Program-made: the position numbers and the translations under genes | Virus record (IMG/VR): IMGVR_UViG_3300023223_000712 | Location: 1 to 36,483 of that record | Source of the DNA: a virus | DNA length: 36,483 nt | Reading direction: 5' to 3' (one strand) | The notes under the pieces: generated by a model | Told to the model about the DNA's origin: nothing | What the model saw: only the letters and a program-made list of their open reading frames with translations | Database searches by the model: none | In this document: piece after piece, positions 5,036 to 30,763 of the stretch | How positions within the stretch are numbered: position 1 is the stretch's first letter | Layout: each line of letters begins with the position of its first letter

Positions 5036-5977
5036 ATGGCTGCACAAAAACTAATCACTCAACGTAATACAAAGAAACACCCACAATATGTTGTAGAAGG
5101 AATGACAGCAGCAACATATGGCATAATACCTGCAACACCAACTGCAAAAGCATTGGGCATTAATGCAATTATAATTAACAACAGTGATCCTATTGCAGTT
5201 GAACAGGTTGAAGCAGGCAAATTTGACAGATCAAAGAAAAACAAAATTTCTGAAAATGTATCTATAACAATAAGATACAACATGACAAAATCAGTAAACG
5301 ACACAGACACATTACTATCAATTGGTAATACTGTAACATTCCCAACATACAGTGCAAAAACACCAGATGAATCAAGAGTATATTTCGATTCATATATCGA
5401 TAATTCTAACGTAGAAATTTATAGAACTTTTCTAGGTTGCAAAGTCACTAGCTGGACCTACACAATAGACAGAGCTGGCTATGTAACAATGGAAATCAAT
5501 TATTTTTGCAAACTAGCTATTGAAAACTCAACAGTACCAACAGGTGTTGGTTCAACAACAATCACATTTGTTACTACTGCATTAACTGATGATGCATACA
5601 AACATGGTGATGCAGGTGCAACACCATTTACTTATGATGCTGTTGCAAAATCATTTTCAACCATCACAATCACATGCACCATCACAGAAGCGCCACAAGA
5701 TGCAATTGGAACAGAAACAGCATTAAACGTGACACCAACAACCAGAAGGATCACAGGATCAATATCATTATACAAATTAGGTAATGCATTTCAGGTTAAT
5801 GCACTAGCACTAACACCCGAACCTGCAGTTTATACCTTTGACAGCTCAGCAGCAAGCACAATGACATTCACAGACTTTTTATTTTTACCATCAAACGAAG
5901 AATTTTCAGGTGATGATGCAACAGCATTAATGGAAATCAAAAGCTTTGAAGCAGATGCGCTGGTAATAGCAATTTAG
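5036..5977 (+). CDS. Major tail protein (tail tube), 313 aa
   Basis: The protein is beta-rich, with many Thr, Ser and Ala, no Cys pair and no signal peptide. Its length matches tail tube subunits carrying an extra C-terminal domain (residues about 190-313, strand-rich, Ig-like in pattern). It lies directly before the tail assembly chaperone with its frameshift, the almost invariant position of the tube gene in siphovirus-like genomes. Non-contractile morphology is inferred because no sheath gene is seen. The start codon is 2 bp after the preceding stop. Confidence 0.75.
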   Translation: MAAQKLITQRNTKKHPQYVVEGMTAATYGIIPATPTAKALGINAIIINNSDPIAVEQVEAGKFDRSKKNKISENVSITIRYNMTKSVNDTDTLLSIGNTVTFPTYSAKTPDESRVYFDSYIDNSNVEIYRTFLGCKVTSWTYTIDRAGYVTMEINYFCKLAIENSTVPTGVGSTTITFVTTALTDDAYKHGDAGATPFTYDAVAKSFSTITITCTITEAPQDAIGTETALNVTPTTRRITGSISLYKLGNAFQVNALALTPEPAVYTFDSSAASTMTFTDFLFLPSNEEFSGDDATALMEIKSFEADALVIAI

Positions 5978-5981
5978 ATGT

Positions 5982-6682
5982 GTGATAATTATGGAAAAAA
6001 AATCACCCAAAACAACTGAAACTGTTGAACAAATCAAGACAAATGTATCAAAATCATCTGAAAAAATCAAACAAGACAAATTAAAGAATGAAGCACTAGA
6101 AAAATTAACAACAGAAATTAATGAATACACAAAAAACCCTGATATTGGTGTTGATTATGACAAATTACACTGCTACATTCACAATCACAGATGGCATATC
6201 AAATCAAATGCACATATCAGCTCAATTAGAAATTCAATAAGAGATTGGTACATAGAATTATTGGAATTGCCATCACAAATTAAAACATCATTAGACGTGT
6301 ACAAAATTCAACCACAATTTGATGCACTATCAAAAAAAATACTTGAAACTGGACTATCAGATTTTGATTATGACAAAGAAGCTGATGATCCTGAGCTTGG
6401 ACCTGTTGCATTAAAACTATTGGCACAGGAATTAGCAGCTTTTTTAGTGGTAAGGGGTGGCAAGGTCGCAGCTACGCACTCAAAGATGCTGCAGAAACAG
6501 GCTCTATTAGAGCATTTGAACGATTAAAATTTTACCCTGACTTATCTAAAAAATTTGATGTTACAATCTACTTTAGGAATGGTTATGGCAATCTCTTTGA
6601 ATGTCACAAGTTTGTTTTTAACAAAAAAGCAACAAAAGCAGACATGATAGAATACAACATCATATTTGGTTCAATGAAATGA
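5982..6682 (+). CDS. Tail assembly chaperone, short form plus -1 frameshifted long form (G/GT type)
   Basis: The zero frame runs 5982-6527 (181 aa). A classic heptamer T TTT TTA occurs at 6440-6446, in register for -1 slippage (zero-frame codons TTT TTA at 6441-6446). The -1 frame is closed by TGA at 6392-6394 upstream, has no usable start codon, and is open from 6395 to TGA at 6680-6682. The slip would give 155 zero-frame residues plus 78 new ones (SGKGWQG... to ...IFGSMK), about 233 aa. This matches lambda gpG/gpGT: the short form coats the tape measure and the extended form recruits tube subunits. Position between the tail tube and gp10-like and tape measure genes supports this. The long form ends overlapping the next start codon (ATGA). 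The frameshift itself is inferred. Confidence 0.85.
6440..6446 (+). promoter_or_regulatory. Slippery heptamer TTTTTTA for -1 frameshifting
   Basis: T TTT TTA is in the correct zero-frame register inside the tail chaperone gene. Shifted reading gives AGT GGT AAG and so on. A G-rich stretch follows immediately (6447-6460), which could help pausing. I did not resolve a downstream pseudoknot. Confidence 0.8.
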
Positions 6683-7134
6683 GCAGCCCAATCAAAGGCA
6701 AAGTTAACTTCACTGAAATTCAAAAATTTTTTGATGATTTTGAACAAAGAATTGCAACACTGAAAAAAAATGTATTAATCAAAGCTCAAGAATTATTATT
6801 AATCACCATCAAAAGACTAGCACCACGAAACACAGGTACTTATGCTGACTCTTGGATAAATGGCCCAATTACTGACAACAGCATGACCATTGAAACACCA
6901 CTAGGCCAACTATACATGATTTTAGAATTTACTGGTGCTGCAGCACAAAAACGCAGAAGGAAACCACCACAAAAACCCTATGTATTCAAAGATGCATCAG
7001 GCAATACAGTTTTCACATACAAAATTGATTGGCCTGGCTTTGAGAAAATACCACATGCAAGAATTGCTTTGGAGCTAACCATGGAAGAGCTAGGTGATAT
7101 TCTTAAAGAAGAATTTGCTAAAATTTTTAAATAA
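6679..7134 (+). CDS. HK97 gp10-like tail/neck protein (151 aa)
   Basis: The central motif LAPRNTGTYADSW resembles the AP-x-DTG-x-L signature of HK97 gp10-like proteins, which act at the head-tail joint or in tail completion. The C-terminal motif PHARIALE followed by an amphipathic helix also fits that family. Usual length is 110-160 aa. The gene overlaps the end of the frameshifted chaperone by 4 bp. Its position after rather than before the tail tube gene is unusual. A basic patch (KRRRKPP) lies in the middle. Confidence 0.65.
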   Translation: MSSPIKGKVNFTEIQKFFDDFEQRIATLKKNVLIKAQELLLITIKRLAPRNTGTYADSWINGPITDNSMTIETPLGQLYMILEFTGAAAQKRRRKPPQKPYVFKDASGNTVFTYKIDWPGFEKIPHARIALELTMEELGDILKEEFAKIFK

Positions 7135-7177: not shown

Positions 7178-7618
7178 CTATGGTTTTAAACAATCACGTA
7201 TCACCAAATCATTGTACACTGAATTGATCTCTTTTTCTAAGAGTTTGTTATCTCGAATCATTCTATCAATTCTGTCTTGATCTGGTGTGTTGCTGTTTCT
7301 ATCATCATCTATCATGTTTTGCCTTCGCTCATGCAATGTTATTGTTGCTTCTAGATTCACTTTTCTTTTCTGACATGAATCTTTTGTATATGGCTCAAAA
7401 CCATCATTCCAAGATACAGTACCAATTTCAGGTACAACATTTGCCCAAGCATCTTGCCAATCTATAACCTGGTGTTTTTGTATTTCCTGTGTAACAGGTA
7501 TTGCATCAATTGTTGCAACCTGTTCTGTACCTACATCTTGAACTGCAATAGCTGCTACCATCACACCTACTATGATTATTGCAATAATTGCAATAGGTAT
7601 TGTTTTGCTATTTGACAT
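7178..7618 (-). CDS. Membrane-anchored accessory protein on the opposite strand (146 aa)
   Basis: The start at 7618 (MSNSKTIPIAII) is chosen over an in-frame ATG six codons upstream because a TATA-like CTTAAA (7646-7641) lies 25 nt before it. One hydrophobic segment (about residues 6-26) anchors the protein. The rest is soluble, acidic then highly charged, with two Cys near the middle and end. It interrupts the tail operon, faces the opposite way and has its own operator-flanked promoter, so it looks like a moron: an independently expressed gene, perhaps active when late genes are silent, for example in host surface alteration or superinfection exclusion. Function is unknown. Confidence 0.75.
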   Translation of the reverse strand: MSNSKTIPIAIIAIIIVGVMVAAIAVQDVGTEQVATIDAIPVTQEIQKHQVIDWQDAWANVVPEIGTVSWNDGFEPYTKDSCQKRKVNLEATITLHERRQNMIDDDRNSNTPDQDRIDRMIRDNKLLEKEINSVYNDLVIRDCLKP

Positions 7619-7664
7619 GTTATGTCTAAAACACATCTTGTTTAAGTGTGTTATGATGATAACA
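7618..7664 (-). promoter_or_regulatory. Promoter with two operators flanking a TATA box (minus-strand gene)
   Basis: Read on the minus strand: operator TGTTATCATCATAACA (7664-7649), TATA-like CTTAAA (7646-7641), then a degenerate operator TGTTTTAGACATAACA (7633-7618) that overlaps the start codon. The two operator centres are 31 bp apart, three helical turns. The same op-TATA-op layout occurs before the gene at 20710, and a single stronger copy lies at 15511-15530. This implies a common DNA-binding regulator. Confidence 0.7.
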
Positions 7665-7692
7665 TGAATGAATTAATAATACAAACACAATT

Positions 7693-7704
7693 TTTATTTA
7701 AATC
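7693..7704 (+). promoter_or_regulatory. TATA box for the tape measure gene
   Basis: TTTATTTAAATC is centred about 25 nt before the TTG at 7723. It supports TTG as a leaderless start and restarts late transcription after the inserted minus-strand gene. Confidence 0.6.
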
Positions 7705-7722
7705 GACTTACACCATATTGTA

Positions 7723-9843
7723 TTGTCTGCTGAACAACTCAAAGGAGTAATTGAAGTTGAATTTGATGAAGGTGATGTTGTAAAAGCTGCAAAAAGTACA
7801 TCTGGTGCAATTGGTACAATGGGCAAATCCATTGAAAAAGATTTAGATGATATTGGCAAATCTGCTGATGGTGCTGCATCTGATTTACAAGGAATGGGTG
7901 ACAAAGGATCACGCTCATTTGATAAATTAGAAGCTGGTGCAGATAGCGCAACAGCATCAGTTAAAGATACAGCACTTGAAGTTGTAGCACTAGGTGAAAC
8001 ATTCAGTGGTGTTGCAGAATCAGCATTTGGATTTGCAGAAAAATTACTATCAGTAGAGCGTGCAATGGTAGGTATTGAACAATCAGCACTTGGTTTGTCA
8101 AGACAGATTGAAGATTTTGAAACTGCAATGAAAAATGGTGAATTATCAACACGTGATCAACAACGTGCAGTACAAGATATTCAAGCAGTTTACAGAGATT
8201 TTGAACTGCAAGGCAGAGAACTTGAAGGACAGCAACAAGCACTTAATGGTGAATTTGTTTCTTTTGGTTTACAAATGTTAACAACAATCACAGTTAGTGG
8301 TGTGATGCTAAAACAATTAGGTTTAACAAATGTTGCACTAGTCAAACAAAAGATTGCATTATTGGCAAACAGCAGAGTTTTAAAATTTTTGAAATTTGAT
8401 CTGGTAGCTGCTAGGGCTGCATTTGTTACAACTACTGGTGCAATGGGTATTATGACATCATCAACCAGAGTGGCCACCTTCTCTGTTGCTGGTTTGCGTG
8501 CAGGTATTCATGCAACCACGCTGGCATTAGGTCCAATAGGCATTGCAATTATTGCAATTACTGCAGCCTTTACCATCTGGGAAACAAATGCATTTGGTGT
8601 ACAAGAAAAGATAGCGCAATTATGGGAGACATTAAAGCAATTCATACCAACTTTAGTTTTATTAGAAGCTACAACCAAAGCACTATTTCCACCAGAAGAA
8701 ATTAAAAAAGTTGGCCAATATGGCATTGAACTTGGTGGCCTAGATGATGTAGCAAAAAATGTTGATGGCCAATTTGCAACACTAGATGAAACCACTGGTA
8801 CTTACACTACAACCATTGGTACTATGACAACAGCAAATCGTGAAGCAATTGAAGTTATGGGCACTGGTGGCATTGGCACTATGGATGAATCATTAACTGG
8901 TGCATTTAATTCAGTTGGTGAAGCAATCAATGAAACCACCCAGGCACTTGTGATGCATCAAGGTTTAATTTTTAGTGCTACTGGTAACATGATTGATCTA
9001 TCAAAACGTGTGGGTAACACAAATGATGTTTATAGAATATGGCAAGAAACACTGAAAGGTGTAAACAAAGAACTTGGTGAAAATAGTGTTTGGTTGGACA
9101 AAGTAAAAAAAAAACAAGATGAATTAAACAACTCTGAAAAACAGAGTGGCATCATTACAACACCATCAGATTTTACAACTACACCAGATGGTGTAGTGCG
9201 CAGACAGCCAACCAGACGTGGACTAGTAACACAAGAATTTTTTAACTCATTGCCACCAGAATTAAAATCAGGTTTCAGGCCCACACGTGGCCCAGGTCCA
9301 GCACCAGGTACTAGGGAACGTTTAGCAAGAGCTAGATCATTTAGAAATTCAGTAGCAGGTATTATTGCTCAAGCATTAACAGGTCGTGGCCCTTTAGACA
9401 GAACCCAATCAGGCATTGCACAAAGAAATCAAGCTACAATTACCTCAATTGTTACACCAATCAGAACAGCCCGAGCTATGGGTTTATCATTTTATCAAGC
9501 AGCATCACAAACAGTTGGTGAATTTAACAAATCTGCACAATCAGCTAGAGCAGCTATAGCAGCAGAGCAGCAAAGAATTTTTAATGAACGTGTTAGCTCC
9601 TTTGGTATTTTATCAAGGGAATTAAGAGTAAATGCAAGAGATTTTGTAACAAGATCAGAGCAAGAATCAATTGCAAATTTTGCAGAACTAGTAGATTTGG
9701 ACACTACACAAATATCAAACCTACAAGCTAGACAATTACTAGCAGCAGGCAGCAGTGAACAAAGCACCAGGAACAGACGAAACGCAACAGCACACAAATT
9801 GGCTTTTTTAAATAGACAGGAAATGATACAAAACTTACCATAA
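7723..9843 (+). CDS. Tail tape measure protein (706 aa, TTG start)
   Basis: This is the longest gene of the tail block, placed after the frameshifted chaperone module. Helical and coiled-coil N-terminal regions rich in Ala, Gly, Asp and Lys (residues about 1-110) are followed by a hydrophobic region around 230-290 (ALGPIGIAIIAITAAF), then a helical C-terminus rich in Arg, Gln and Ala. These are hallmarks of tape measure proteins, which set tail length and pass into the host membrane. By the usual rule of about 0.15 nm per residue the tail would be near 100 nm. The start is TTG TCT GCT, set by the TATA distance. The stop overlaps the next start (TAATG). Confidence 0.85.
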   Translation: MSAEQLKGVIEVEFDEGDVVKAAKSTSGAIGTMGKSIEKDLDDIGKSADGAASDLQGMGDKGSRSFDKLEAGADSATASVKDTALEVVALGETFSGVAESAFGFAEKLLSVERAMVGIEQSALGLSRQIEDFETAMKNGELSTRDQQRAVQDIQAVYRDFELQGRELEGQQQALNGEFVSFGLQMLTTITVSGVMLKQLGLTNVALVKQKIALLANSRVLKFLKFDLVAARAAFVTTTGAMGIMTSSTRVATFSVAGLRAGIHATTLALGPIGIAIIAITAAFTIWETNAFGVQEKIAQLWETLKQFIPTLVLLEATTKALFPPEEIKKVGQYGIELGGLDDVAKNVDGQFATLDETTGTYTTTIGTMTTANREAIEVMGTGGIGTMDESLTGAFNSVGEAINETTQALVMHQGLIFSATGNMIDLSKRVGNTNDVYRIWQETLKGVNKELGENSVWLDKVKKKQDELNNSEKQSGIITTPSDFTTTPDGVVRRQPTRRGLVTQEFFNSLPPELKSGFRPTRGPGPAPGTRERLARARSFRNSVAGIIAQALTGRGPLDRTQSGIAQRNQATITSIVTPIRTARAMGLSFYQAASQTVGEFNKSAQSARAAIAAEQQRIFNERVSSFGILSRELRVNARDFVTRSEQESIANFAELVDLDTTQISNLQARQLLAAGSSEQSTRNRRNATAHKLAFLNRQEMIQNLP

Positions 9844-14246: not shown

Positions 14247-14891
14247 ATGTTGAACAATTCACCTGAAATACTAGTTGTAGATGATTTTCTATCAACCAAC
14301 CAATTATTTCAATGCCAACAGGAAATCACAGCTAACAAATCAAAACGTGAAGCAGAAAAAAATGGCAAACATGCATCATATTCTAGATATTACCCAGATG
14401 TAAACACAATGATCCCAAACACAATTAATGATACTTTATTCACTGACAAAATCCACAATTTAATCAAAGATTTTCACGATGGATTTTGGAAATTATTTAA
14501 TGAACAACTAGCACTAGGTTTTGAGGTACAAGTAACAGCATACAAAAAGAAACTAAAAAACAAATATGATTGGCATGTTGATCATAGAATTGAGAATGAT
14601 AGATATCCTGGCATCAGAGTTTTGAATTATATTTTGTACATGTCTGATGTTGCAGATGGTGGTGAGCTGGAAATAGCAGATTATTATGGCAAACATGATC
14701 CAAATCGCAAAAAATACAACATCATCAAAACCATCAAGCCAAAAACAAACAGACTAGCACTAATGCCTTCTTGGATGGTCCACAGAGTAAAGCCAATAAA
14801 ATCAGATGATACCAGGATCACAATCAATGGCCATGTTTTTCTACAAAGTATTCAAATGATAAATAATAAATTCAACATTGTTGTACAATAA
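14247..14891 (+). CDS. 2-oxoglutarate/Fe(II) oxygenase, prolyl-4-hydroxylase-like (214 aa)
   Basis: The double-stranded beta-helix signature is complete: iron ligands H110 and D112 in WHVDHR, H179 in SWMVHRV, and R190 eleven residues later in RITINGHVF as the likely 2-oxoglutarate carboxylate binder. A GGELEIADYY strand lies between them, as in prolyl 4-hydroxylases and related phage oxygenases. Family enzymes hydroxylate side chains using O2 and 2-oxoglutarate. The next gene, 5 bp downstream, encodes a proline-rich repeat protein, a plausible substrate. Setting it within the fibre module suggests modification of virion proteins. Substrate specificity is inferred. It could instead act on nucleobases or a host protein. 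Confidence 0.85.
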   Translation: MLNNSPEILVVDDFLSTNQLFQCQQEITANKSKREAEKNGKHASYSRYYPDVNTMIPNTINDTLFTDKIHNLIKDFHDGFWKLFNEQLALGFEVQVTAYKKKLKNKYDWHVDHRIENDRYPGIRVLNYILYMSDVADGGELEIADYYGKHDPNRKKYNIIKTIKPKTNRLALMPSWMVHRVKPIKSDDTRITINGHVFLQSIQMINNKFNIVVQ

Positions 14892-18918: not shown

Positions 18919-19167
18919 ATGGTTAAACTACACAAACACATCAAAATTTACACCAGAAAAAAGTTAAAACGTGACTACAGTAAATGCAATTGGTGATCAA
19001 TTATAGGCACTACCAACATTAAGAAATCAGTCAAGCAAAAGCACAAGAGAGTTACAGCTAAACAGCTAAAGCGCAGAGCAGAAGTATTATTTTTACTAAT
19101 CAAAGGTTTCAATGTCACCTACATTGCAAACCATCTAGATGTAGCACACAACACAGTAAAACAAGAT
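18919..19167 (+). other. Upstream reading frame joined in-frame to the next gene, broken by TGA
   Basis: From the ATG at 18919 (MVKLHKHIKIYTRKK) the frame runs 25 codons to TGA at 18994-18996. After it the same frame stays open into the gene at 19168 without any ATG, GTG or TTG before 19168. The segment 18997-19167 encodes a basic stretch and a helix-turn-helix-like run (RRAEVLFLLIKGFNVTYIAN...). A helix-turn-helix lacking a start codon implies readthrough, a non-standard start (ATT at 19000), a sequencing error, or a recent nonsense mutation. Confidence 0.5.
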
Positions 19168-19650
19168 GTGCAAGACATGGTTGGTGAAGTTATAGACTGG
19201 ACCAACAACCTTGCATTGGTTGCATGGCTCAAAAAAGTTGAAGAACTATACCAGGAAACAATATCATCAATTGATAAAATAATAAAGCTCCAGGATCAAA
19301 TTATTGAACGAAGCACCTTTGATGGTGATTTCACATTCCCAGAAAACCCCTTCAACCCAAACACACAAGAAAAGCAGCATCTAAGACACCTGGAAATTCA
19401 AGGCCAAGTAATGACAGCATACTACACCAGGCGCAATGAATACAGTGAATATGCACAGCTAGAAAATGCCAAAAACAAATCTAAAGAACTACTAATTGGC
19501 ATGACCACCCACATACCACTATTTGCAGCAACACAACGTTTAGCAATCAGCTTTGATCAAAACAAGCCACCAGAACTAGAAGCAATACCTAATGTTATCA
19601 CAACACCATCAGAGCCAAAAACCAAATTAGATACTAATAAAAGCAAATAA
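19168..19650 (+). CDS. Candidate small terminase subunit (at least 160 aa; true start uncertain)
   Basis: The first canonical start is GTG at 19168, but coding character clearly continues upstream to 18997, where a helix-turn-helix and basic segment lie. With that extension the product has a DNA-binding N-terminus, then long helices (LKKVEELYQETISSIDKIIK) and a Pro-rich tail. This resembles small terminase subunits, which recognise the packaging site. It follows an HNH nuclease and a repeat-rich non-coding region. The large subunit is about 5 kb downstream, farther than usual. It could instead be a transcription regulator. Confidence 0.5.
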   Translation: MQDMVGEVIDWTNNLALVAWLKKVEELYQETISSIDKIIKLQDQIIERSTFDGDFTFPENPFNPNTQEKQHLRHLEIQGQVMTAYYTRRNEYSEYAQLENAKNKSKELLIGMTTHIPLFAATQRLAISFDQNKPPELEAIPNVITTPSEPKTKLDTNKSK

Positions 19651-23030: not shown

Positions 23031-23399
23031 ATGAATTGTCCAGTTTGCAACATTGTAATTTATGAAGAATTAGAATGCGCTGATCCTAAATTCTGTTGTC
23101 AATGTGGTGCATCACTTGATGCAACAGAAAATAATAATTTATCAATCACCACTGTTGAACTTGACAACCTGGTTGAATTTTTAGATAAAAATAACTCTAT
23201 AGTTGAAGATGCAGCAATACCATTACACCATACAATGCTAACTTTGACATTTTTAATGGAAAATAAACTACTAAAACCAAATCCTATGACTTTAGCTATT
23301 CTTCAATACATGTTTGTATATTCAGACGAACACAGACATAAAATTTCAACTAATTCAGATGAAGTACCTTTTAGTGGTACAGGTAAAAAAAAACATTGA
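23031..23399 (+). CDS. Zinc-ribbon protein (122 aa)
   Basis: An N-terminal zinc ribbon has CPVC (residues 3-6) and CCQCG (about 23-27). The rest is helical and acidic, with an HHT segment and a Lys-rich end. It may contact transcription machinery, but no family is recognised. Its TGA overlaps the TTG start of the next gene. Confidence 0.7.
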   Translation: MNCPVCNIVIYEELECADPKFCCQCGASLDATENNNLSITTVELDNLVEFLDKNNSIVEDAAIPLHHTMLTLTFLMENKLLKPNPMTLAILQYMFVYSDEHRHKISTNSDEVPFSGTGKKKH

Positions 23400-23578
23400 T
23401 CAGAAAATTAATTGATTACCTCAAAGGTGTTGTTGAATTGCCACACAATGAGCTGTACATATGGAAATGCTTGTATTGTAATGCAGAAATTGATGGTGCA
23501 AACATGGATCTAGTAATTTTGCATGAAATCAAATTCAATCACAAGAAAAAGTGGCGCAGAATTAAAAAAGTAGACTGA
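23396..23578 (+). CDS. C2H2-like zinc-finger microprotein (60 aa, TTG start)
   Basis: The TTG at 23396 overlaps the TGA of the preceding gene. A basic helix comes first, then WKCLYCNAEI with two Cys and, about 18 residues later, HEIKFNH with two His: a C2H2-like finger. The end is very basic (KKKWRRIKK). A DNA- or RNA-binding role is likely. Confidence 0.65.
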   Translation: MIRKLIDYLKGVVELPHNELYIWKCLYCNAEIDGANMDLVILHEIKFNHKKKWRRIKKVD

Positions 23579-28559: not shown

Positions 28560-30763
28560 ATGCAGATGAAGCTATCAGAGATTGCAAACCACAAAAAGCT
28601 AGGTGCTATCATCAAAACTTTAGATTCTTCATTCAATGAAAAGGACATGCCAAAATTTAGAAAAATACTTCTTGCTAAAACCAAAGACAATGATAAAACA
28701 ATTGATCAAAATCAAATGTATGATTACTTAACAAGAGAAATTGTAGAATTTAACCAAAAAGAAAAAATTAACAAATTAATGACTACTACTAATTCAGCTC
28801 ACACCAATTCATTTGATTGGACTAAATCAATGGGCATCACATTAAAGGATGCTAACGAATTACGATTAATCAAGGGTGTTGCAATGAGCAGTGGCATCAA
28901 AAAGGATGGTGTAAAAGAAACACAAGACAACATTGCATTTGGCACAGGTACAATGCAAGCATACATTCTAAACGGTACTGTAGTTTGTGATATTGATCAT
29001 TTCAAAGAAGAATTGCCTAGTGATGAATACAGTGATTACCCTGTAAAAGAAATCAATGCAGAATATCCACCAGCAACAATGCTAGCTGTTGGTTTAGGTC
29101 GAAACACAGTAGGCAACAAAGGTGAAGAAAAAGTACAGACTGAATTTTTAGCAGTTTGCTCAAATAAAACAGTCTATGACATGATTGGCAAGGGTGAATT
29201 TGTTGGCTGCTCAACAGAAGAAATTATGAGAAACAGAGTGTGCAAAGAAGATGGCACAGAATGTACAGCAGAAGGATCACACCTACCAGCTAATACTTTA
29301 CTACTCAAGGGAGTGCCAAACAGCGATTCAACATGGGTGGCACAAGTTAATGAAAAAGACATTGGCACAATACTATCAAAAGAAGGTGAAACAAACCATA
29401 TTTCAAATTCACTCAAATCAAAGCTAATGCTAATCTTAAAAAACAGATACCTAAACCACGTCACCAAAAATGAAGAACAAATTGTTGACATTACCAAATA
29501 TTACAATGAAGATGGGAAATGGAAAAATGGCGCTGACTCTATCAATGAATTTCTTACTGTTGAAAAGAAAGTAAACAATGAAAAAGCTAAACTCATTGCT
29601 GATTATCTATTTGTTAATCCTGGTGCATTAAATGAGGTTCATCTAACATTCTTTTCTGCAGATGATCTAGTTGCATGGTTTGACAATCTAAACTTTAACA
29701 AAATAATCAAAGAGCAAAATGCTCAGCTAATCCAAATCAAATCAAAAATGCGCAAAGATAACGCTGTTCAATTTGGCCAAGGTGAAGTTGAATATGGTGA
29801 TTACCCAGAAGGCTCAAAGTGTTATCAATGCAGATGGTTCACATCATTTGAAGCAGAAATTGAAGAAATACCAAACTCATTAGGATCATGCAATATTGTT
29901 GCAGGTGATATTATGGGCCAAAAAGGTTGCAATAGATTTGAAGCAATACCAGGTGGTTCAGCAGTAGATCCAGCAGCAGCAGATGGTGCAGCAGCAGCAG
30001 CAGCAGAACCAGGTAACTTATCACATCAAGAACCAGATGCAGATGGCAATTGCCCTGACACTCACCATTTAGGTGAAGTTGATGGTGTGCCAATGTGCAT
30101 ACCAAACGATGAACCAGCAGCAGATGCAGATACTACAGCAAATGTTGATCCTTTACCAGTAAATGAAGATGGCACATGCCCTGATGGCTATGAACTAGGT
30201 GAAGATGCAGATGGCAATGAAATGTGTATGCCAACTCAAGCTACAATTGATGCAGCAGATGCAGCAGCAGCAAACAAATCAAAAGAAACACTAACCAAAG
30301 AACAAATTAACAAATTGCTTGGCAAAAATAAAAATTCTGTTAAATCATCTGCATTAACTGAAAAGGATCCAAAGTCAACACACAACCAAAAGATTATAGC
30401 TATAAACAAAGACATTGAACTACTAAAGAAGAATCTAAAACAAATCCCAATACGTTATGGCATGGACAAAGAAGCAAAGAACCTGATCGAACAACGAAAA
30501 TCAATTCAAAACCAGATTAGAGAGCTGCAACAAAAAAAAAGAACTCTATAGACAATTTTCTAGTCATTTACAATCAAGGCAGATCAGCAACATCAGGTAT
30601 TGAAACAATTTTACTTGAAATTTGGAACATTCATGGCGCAGAAGATGAATTATGCACACAATATGATGGTACAATCTGGGATGTGAACACTGGACCACAC
30701 CCAATTACTGATACTCACCCTAATTGCAACTGTACACGTGATGTTTTCTCTACAAAACTGTAG
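28560..30763 (+). CDS. Prohead protease/scaffold, with candidate -1 frameshift to a MuF-like zinc tail
   Basis: The zero frame is 28560-30551 (663 aa). The protease part is at about 95-230, with CDIDHF (H147) and GEFVGCSTEE (S218) as likely catalytic His and Ser of an HK97-type prohead protease. It is followed by a helical scaffold-like part, a CYQCRWF segment, an Ala/Asp-rich linker, two Cys repeats (DGNCPDTHHLG...MCIP and DGTCPDGYELG...MCMP), and a Lys-rich end. Near the end, a run of nine A and G (30532-30541) offers A AAA AAA in -1 register (30533-30539). The -1 frame lacks a start, is open from 30521 to TAG at 30761-30763, and adds 74 residues ending ELCTQYDGTIW...HPNCNC, the zinc-binding C-terminus of Mu gpF-like proteins. 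Total would be about 734 aa. The shift is inferred. A homopolymer sequencing error would give the same picture. Confidence 0.75.
29970..30006 (+). repeat. GCA triplet repeats in the protease linker
   Basis: Two runs of GCA codons encode an Ala-rich linker between the protease/scaffold part and the Cys repeats. They are prone to length change by slippage. Confidence 0.7.
30533..30539 (+). promoter_or_regulatory. Candidate slippery heptamer AAAAAAA (within A9G)
   Basis: Zero-frame codons AAA AAA (30534-30539) preceded by A form A AAA AAA. After slipping, the next codon is AAG at 30539. It links the protease frame to the start-less MuF-like frame. Confidence 0.6.

Follow-up and report, generated by a model that had tools for sequence, protein, structure and literature searches.

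The window analysed here is the complete 36,483-base virus record IMGVR_UViG_3300023223_000712, studied from sequence data alone, in which the tail tube gene is followed by two overlapping open reading frames (ORFs) on the same strand (Table 1). The upstream frame (frame 0) encodes 178 amino acids (aa) from an ATG, with GTG 5982 as an alternative possible start, and contains the slippery heptamer T_TTT_TTA at 6440-6446. The codons at this position read ..GCT TTT TTA GTG.., i.e., the canonical X_XXY_YYZ register, as a preliminary description of this DNA had stated. Between a TGA at 6392 and one that ends at 6682, the second frame, displaced by -1, contains no stop codon; the latter TGA overlaps the ATG of the next gene (6679) as ATGA. 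The description of a start-less -1 frame that ends on the next gene's ATG was thus confirmed. The first ATG, GTG or TTG of the -1 frame lies 68 codons past the slip, in this virus and in its relative (see below), and is therefore too late for making the conserved -1 peptide. Slippage at the heptamer would join 152 aa of frame 0 to 78 aa of frame -1, giving a predicted fusion of 230 aa versus the 178-aa product of frame 0. Based on this anatomy and on the comparison with the relative, the proposal of a tail-assembly-chaperone pair of the lambda G/GT type, expressed by programmed -1 ribosomal frameshifting, is well supported, and we consider it highly probable.

Table 1. Features of the tail region and of a second candidate recoding site (positions in the window)
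Feature	Position	Strand	Basis or remark
Tail tube (major tail) protein gene	5036-5977	+	PF18906 Phage_tube_2 E=7.8e-9, above cut-off; PHROG 290 E=2.7e-10
Frame-0 ORF, candidate G-like chaperone, 178 aa	5991-6527	+	ATG 5991, TAA 6527
AGGA-containing Shine-Dalgarno (SD)-like stretch	6426-6430	+	about 10 nucleotides (nt) before slip; present in both viruses
66-nt block identical in both viruses	6433-6498	+	begins 7 nt before heptamer
Slippery heptamer T_TTT_TTA	6440-6446	+	in frame-0 register; conserved in relative
-1 frame extension, candidate T-like, 78 aa	6446-6682	+	without usable start codon
Candidate H-type pseudoknot	6455-6492	+	starts 8 nt past heptamer
HK97-gp10/neck1-like gene	6679-7134	+	PHROG 5 E=0.002; PF04883 E=0.0017, just below cut-off
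ORF with hydrophobic N-terminus	7178-7636	-	without match in relative
Tape measure protein gene	7723-9843	+	PHROG 34082 E=0.0027 (weak), length, position
Head-region protein gene ending at A9 run	28560-30551	+	-1 frame to 30763

The window was scanned for in-frame X_XXY_YYZ heptamers, with a threshold of at least 35 codons for a -1 extension past the frame-0 stop. Such heptamers are no rarity in a genome this rich in AT (59 per 10,010 codons, or 0.0059 per codon). Only three of them lead to an extension that reaches the threshold, and the longest open -1 frame among the heptamers of the window is the one at 6440-6446. Genome-wide scans of both viruses left just two in-frame heptamers that are shared and followed by a start-less -1 extension, this site being one of them.

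The relative, IMGVR_UViG_3300023443_001024, was found in an IMG/VR search with the -1 peptide (87% identity), and its DNA is about 73% identical to the window; conservation of the recoding signal and of both frames is read from this one virus. The two contigs share the gene string tail tube, chaperone frame 0, -1 frame, neck-like gene and tape measure, and the heptamer, the overlap and the -1 extension are all kept. A layout in which the frames are fused without a slip site, or in which the second frame is absent, was not seen in this relative. IMG/VR searches with both chaperone frames, the tail tube and TerL as queries, run as single-protein and alignment searches, yielded no further close relatives. 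An exact-match DNA pattern search added one contig, which was unrelated. The looser pattern TTTTTTAG.GG.AARGG.TGG was rejected: it returned eight more stretches, every one of them an unrelated frame. A TerL alignment with Bacillus-type phages led to 43 additional records at 24-29% identity; the tail tube was absent in the 24 of these that were searched, a weak negative given a query built from two rows.

Comparison of the two viruses revealed that the coding frame switches inside the overlap, which starts at the heptamer. Upstream of the slip, 37 of 77 differences fall at third positions of frame 0, with a nonsynonymous rate (dN) of 0.177 and a synonymous rate (dS) of 0.796; past the frame-0 stop, 17 of 28 differences fall at third positions of frame -1 (dN 0.106, dS 1.170). 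The pattern points to purifying selection that acts on frame 0 up to the site and on frame -1 once frame 0 has ended. In the overlap, dS drops to 0.12-0.14 in either frame, and the frame-0 tail beyond the slip is 89% conserved. Taken together, the third-position pattern, the dN and dS values and the low overlap dS indicate that both frames are most likely translated and constrained.

A 66-nt block that reaches from 7 nt before the heptamer into the overlap is the longest exact match of the two contigs, the second longest being 44 nt. In a simple simulation at 77% identity, the longest identical run was 32 on average and 55 at maximum (300 trials). Within the overlap the first 59 bases contain no changes versus six in the last 29 (Fisher p = 0.0009, with the cut at 6498 picked from the data). 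The expectation that the heptamer would be kept while its flanks vary held on the upstream side and failed on the downstream flank, which is invariant too.

A candidate H-type pseudoknot lies wholly inside the invariant block. Its first stem would pair GGGUG (6455-6459) with CACUC (6477-6481) and its second GCAGC (6468-6472) with GCUGC (6488-6492). By a home-made score that counts stacking only, 9 of 200 shuffles and 4 of 300 other positions of the window gave stacks at least as strong. The two sequences are identical here and hence carry no covariation signal; the spacing to the heptamer and the invariance fit a stimulator. Nested RNA structure past the slip was no better than in shuffles (z -0.16 and +1.19), and no Rfam family matched. 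The AGGA upstream of the heptamer could act as an SD-like stimulator, by analogy with bacterial sites.

Under the frameshifting reading, most ribosomes would follow frame 0 to TAA 6527 and release the 178-aa G-like product. A minority would move one base back on U_UUU_UUA, where the tRNAs would pair anew with UUU UUU, and continue to UGA 6682, producing the 230-aa GT-like fusion; the pseudoknot, and perhaps the upstream AGGA as well, may raise the efficiency of this step. If the lambda model applies, the tape measure protein would be coated by the G part, while the T part would recruit the tail tube protein.

The same fusion protein could arise if the RNA polymerase added or skipped bases on the T6 run, which is indeed present. 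Productive transcriptional slippage commonly needs an A or T run of at least about 9 bases, so six T are short for it, and the window holds eight longer T runs of 7-8 bases. Moreover, the exact in-frame X_XXY_YYZ register is a requirement of the ribosome and not of the polymerase, and we regard slippage of the polymerase as improbable. It is less probable still that the -1 frame is a separate gene, translated through re-initiation or a non-standard start. Short genes that overlap and are translationally coupled are frequent, and the neck-like gene itself uses ATGA; nevertheless, the long stretch without a start codon in both viruses and an invariant heptamer in exact register speak against such a gene. 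Loss or gain of a base, by assembly error or gene decay, could also split one frame in two, given that the virus contig is known from assembled sequence only and that the heptamer includes a homopolymer. However, a separate IMG/VR contig shows both frames and the identical heptamer, purifying selection acts on both of them, and the conservation of the frame-0 tail past the slip does not fit a broken gene. Sequence error was rejected as the cause in view of the identical layout in the relative, and we hold an error or a decayed gene to be the most remote of these explanations.

A further alternative accepts the frameshifting and assigns it to another tail or neck protein that is made in two lengths. 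The lack of homology to known chaperones and the neck-like gene directly next to the pair would allow this; the position right after the tail tube, the lengths of 178 and 230 aa and the mode of expression all match G/GT instead, which leaves this assignment unlikely. The identification as a tail-assembly chaperone thus draws on position, size and expression mode.

Several observations weigh against a G/GT-type pair expressed by frameshifting. The gene order tail tube, chaperone, tape measure given in the preliminary description holds insofar as the pair lies between the other two, but it is not adjacent to the tape measure, being separated from it by the neck-like gene and the minus-strand ORF. 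Homology to any known chaperone family was not detected: Pfam gave no convincing match for either half of the pair, PHROG only a match at chance level (E 0.2), the PDB no sequence homologue, and a tblastn search of the phage collection with the fusion no match. Tail chaperone sequences diverge beyond recognition. AlphaFold models with two sequences were of too low quality for fold comparison (predicted local distance difference test, pLDDT, 54 and 56), there is only one relative, support for the pseudoknot is modest, and the frameshifting is a prediction from sequence. Finally, dual coding by itself can explain the 66-nt identical block. Conservation of the overlap is expected, because almost any change there alters at least one of the two products (of 56 frame-0-silent changes, only 2 are silent in both frames), and the identical block therefore does not alone prove an RNA element.

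In the remainder of the tail module, the minus-strand ORF at 7178-7636 is probably an inserted accessory gene. A TTTTTATTTAAAT box at about 7690-7723, approximately 26 nt upstream of the TTG start of the tape measure gene, is kept in the relative and looks like an archaeal promoter of a leaderless transcript. In the tail or accessory region, 14247-14891 encodes a 2OG-Fe(II) oxygenase (PF13640 E=3.4e-13).

The only other shared start-less case in the scan of both viruses concerns the head-region gene 28560-30551, whose 3' end reads CAA CAA AAA AAA AGA ACT CTA TAG. A slip at A_AAA_AAA (30533-30539), part of the A9 run 30532-30540, would give access to a -1 frame that extends to 30763; the run and the layout are kept in the relative, where the -1 domain lies on the reverse strand at about 3553-3341. 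Between the two viruses, this -1 peptide shows 73% identity (dN 0.191, dS 0.530) and carries the motif HPNCNC or HPNCKC. Its best matches are weak and mostly of the head-morphogenesis or SPP1-gp7/MuF type, with E-values of 0.12-0.41 among PHROGs and 0.2-0.9 among named phages. This extension is a candidate for providing the head-region protein with a MuF-like (HPNCxC) domain. Either ribosomal or transcriptional slippage is a candidate mechanism: nine A are long enough for the latter, and no strong RNA structure was found past the run. If true, the product would belong to a kind of recoded minor head protein for which a search of the full-text literature turned up no report. The two sites may mark a single lineage of tailed viruses, possibly archaeal, with two independent -1 sites in its structural module, i.e., U_UUU_UUA plus pseudoknot for the tail chaperone and A9 for the MuF-like domain; we put this forward tentatively, as a possibility that falls a little short of probable.

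A third A9 run (23385-23393) lies at a frame change (23031-23578), where an ORF for a 122-aa CxxC protein ends just after the run and the -1 frame goes on until 23578 (59 codons) and includes cysteines and histidines. A TTG lies close to the junction in this -1 frame, for which no match was found in the relative; slippage, an error or an independent gene could each account for the frame change. The 44-nt match to the relative (19087-19130) sits within 18925-19620, in an open frame that starts upstream of the listed GTG 19168; the protein of 18925-19620 is about 82% conserved and has a helix-turn-helix look.

The arrangement resembles lambda gpG/gpGT in its short frame-0 protein with a rarer -1 fusion, in a second frame that lacks a start and in its position after the tail tube gene. 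It differs in that the slip site is U_UUU_UUA, whereas lambda uses G_GGA_AAG, in the lack of sequence similarity, and in the neck-like gene and reverse-strand ORF that precede the tape measure here. Among archaeal tailed viruses, -1 G/GT frameshifting has been reported for HVTV-1 and HCTV-1, -2 and -5, while HSTV-2 likely uses a +1 event (PMC5009743, PMC8211752), and it has been described for Hardycor1 at G GGA AAT (PMC7911831). HVTV-1, HCTV-1, -2 and -5 and Hardycor1 thus share a predicted -1 G/GT frameshift with the present virus, but their hosts are haloarchaea. A -1 frameshift in Sulfolobus solfataricus fucA1 (alpha-fucosidase) was shown experimentally (PMC8211752); it likewise involves a slippery heptamer in an archaeon, although in a cellular enzyme with an A-rich slip site and not in a structural gene with two products. 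For ribosomal frameshifting in thaumarchaeal viruses, a full-text literature search returned only a survey of frame transitions in prokaryotic genomes.

The thaumarchaeal host assumed in the preliminary description is unproven, as no link of the virus to an archaeal genome was found, and we regard it as possibly a virus of archaea. TATA-like boxes are modestly enriched in the window (7 observed versus 3.5 expected; 24 of 500 shuffles reach as many). The nearest TerL relatives among named phages are of the Bacillus type, i.e., bacterial, at 25-30% identity. A collection of genome contigs, searched with poor patterns derived from two proteins, contained no relative.

The locus, if that of a thaumarchaeal virus, had been presented as evidence that archaeal ribosomes support such recoding. 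It would not be the first, since haloarchaeal viruses and Sulfolobus precede it, and that capability, shown before, is not settled by the present case. The G/GT frameshift is a known phage device and not a new one, here with a U-rich slip site; its occurrence would bring a divergent virus group, using such a site, into the range of this very widespread frameshift and would provide a compact conserved signal that is testable in an archaeal translation system. If true, the site at 6440 and the head-gene site together would mean that -1 recoding is used more than once in building the virion.
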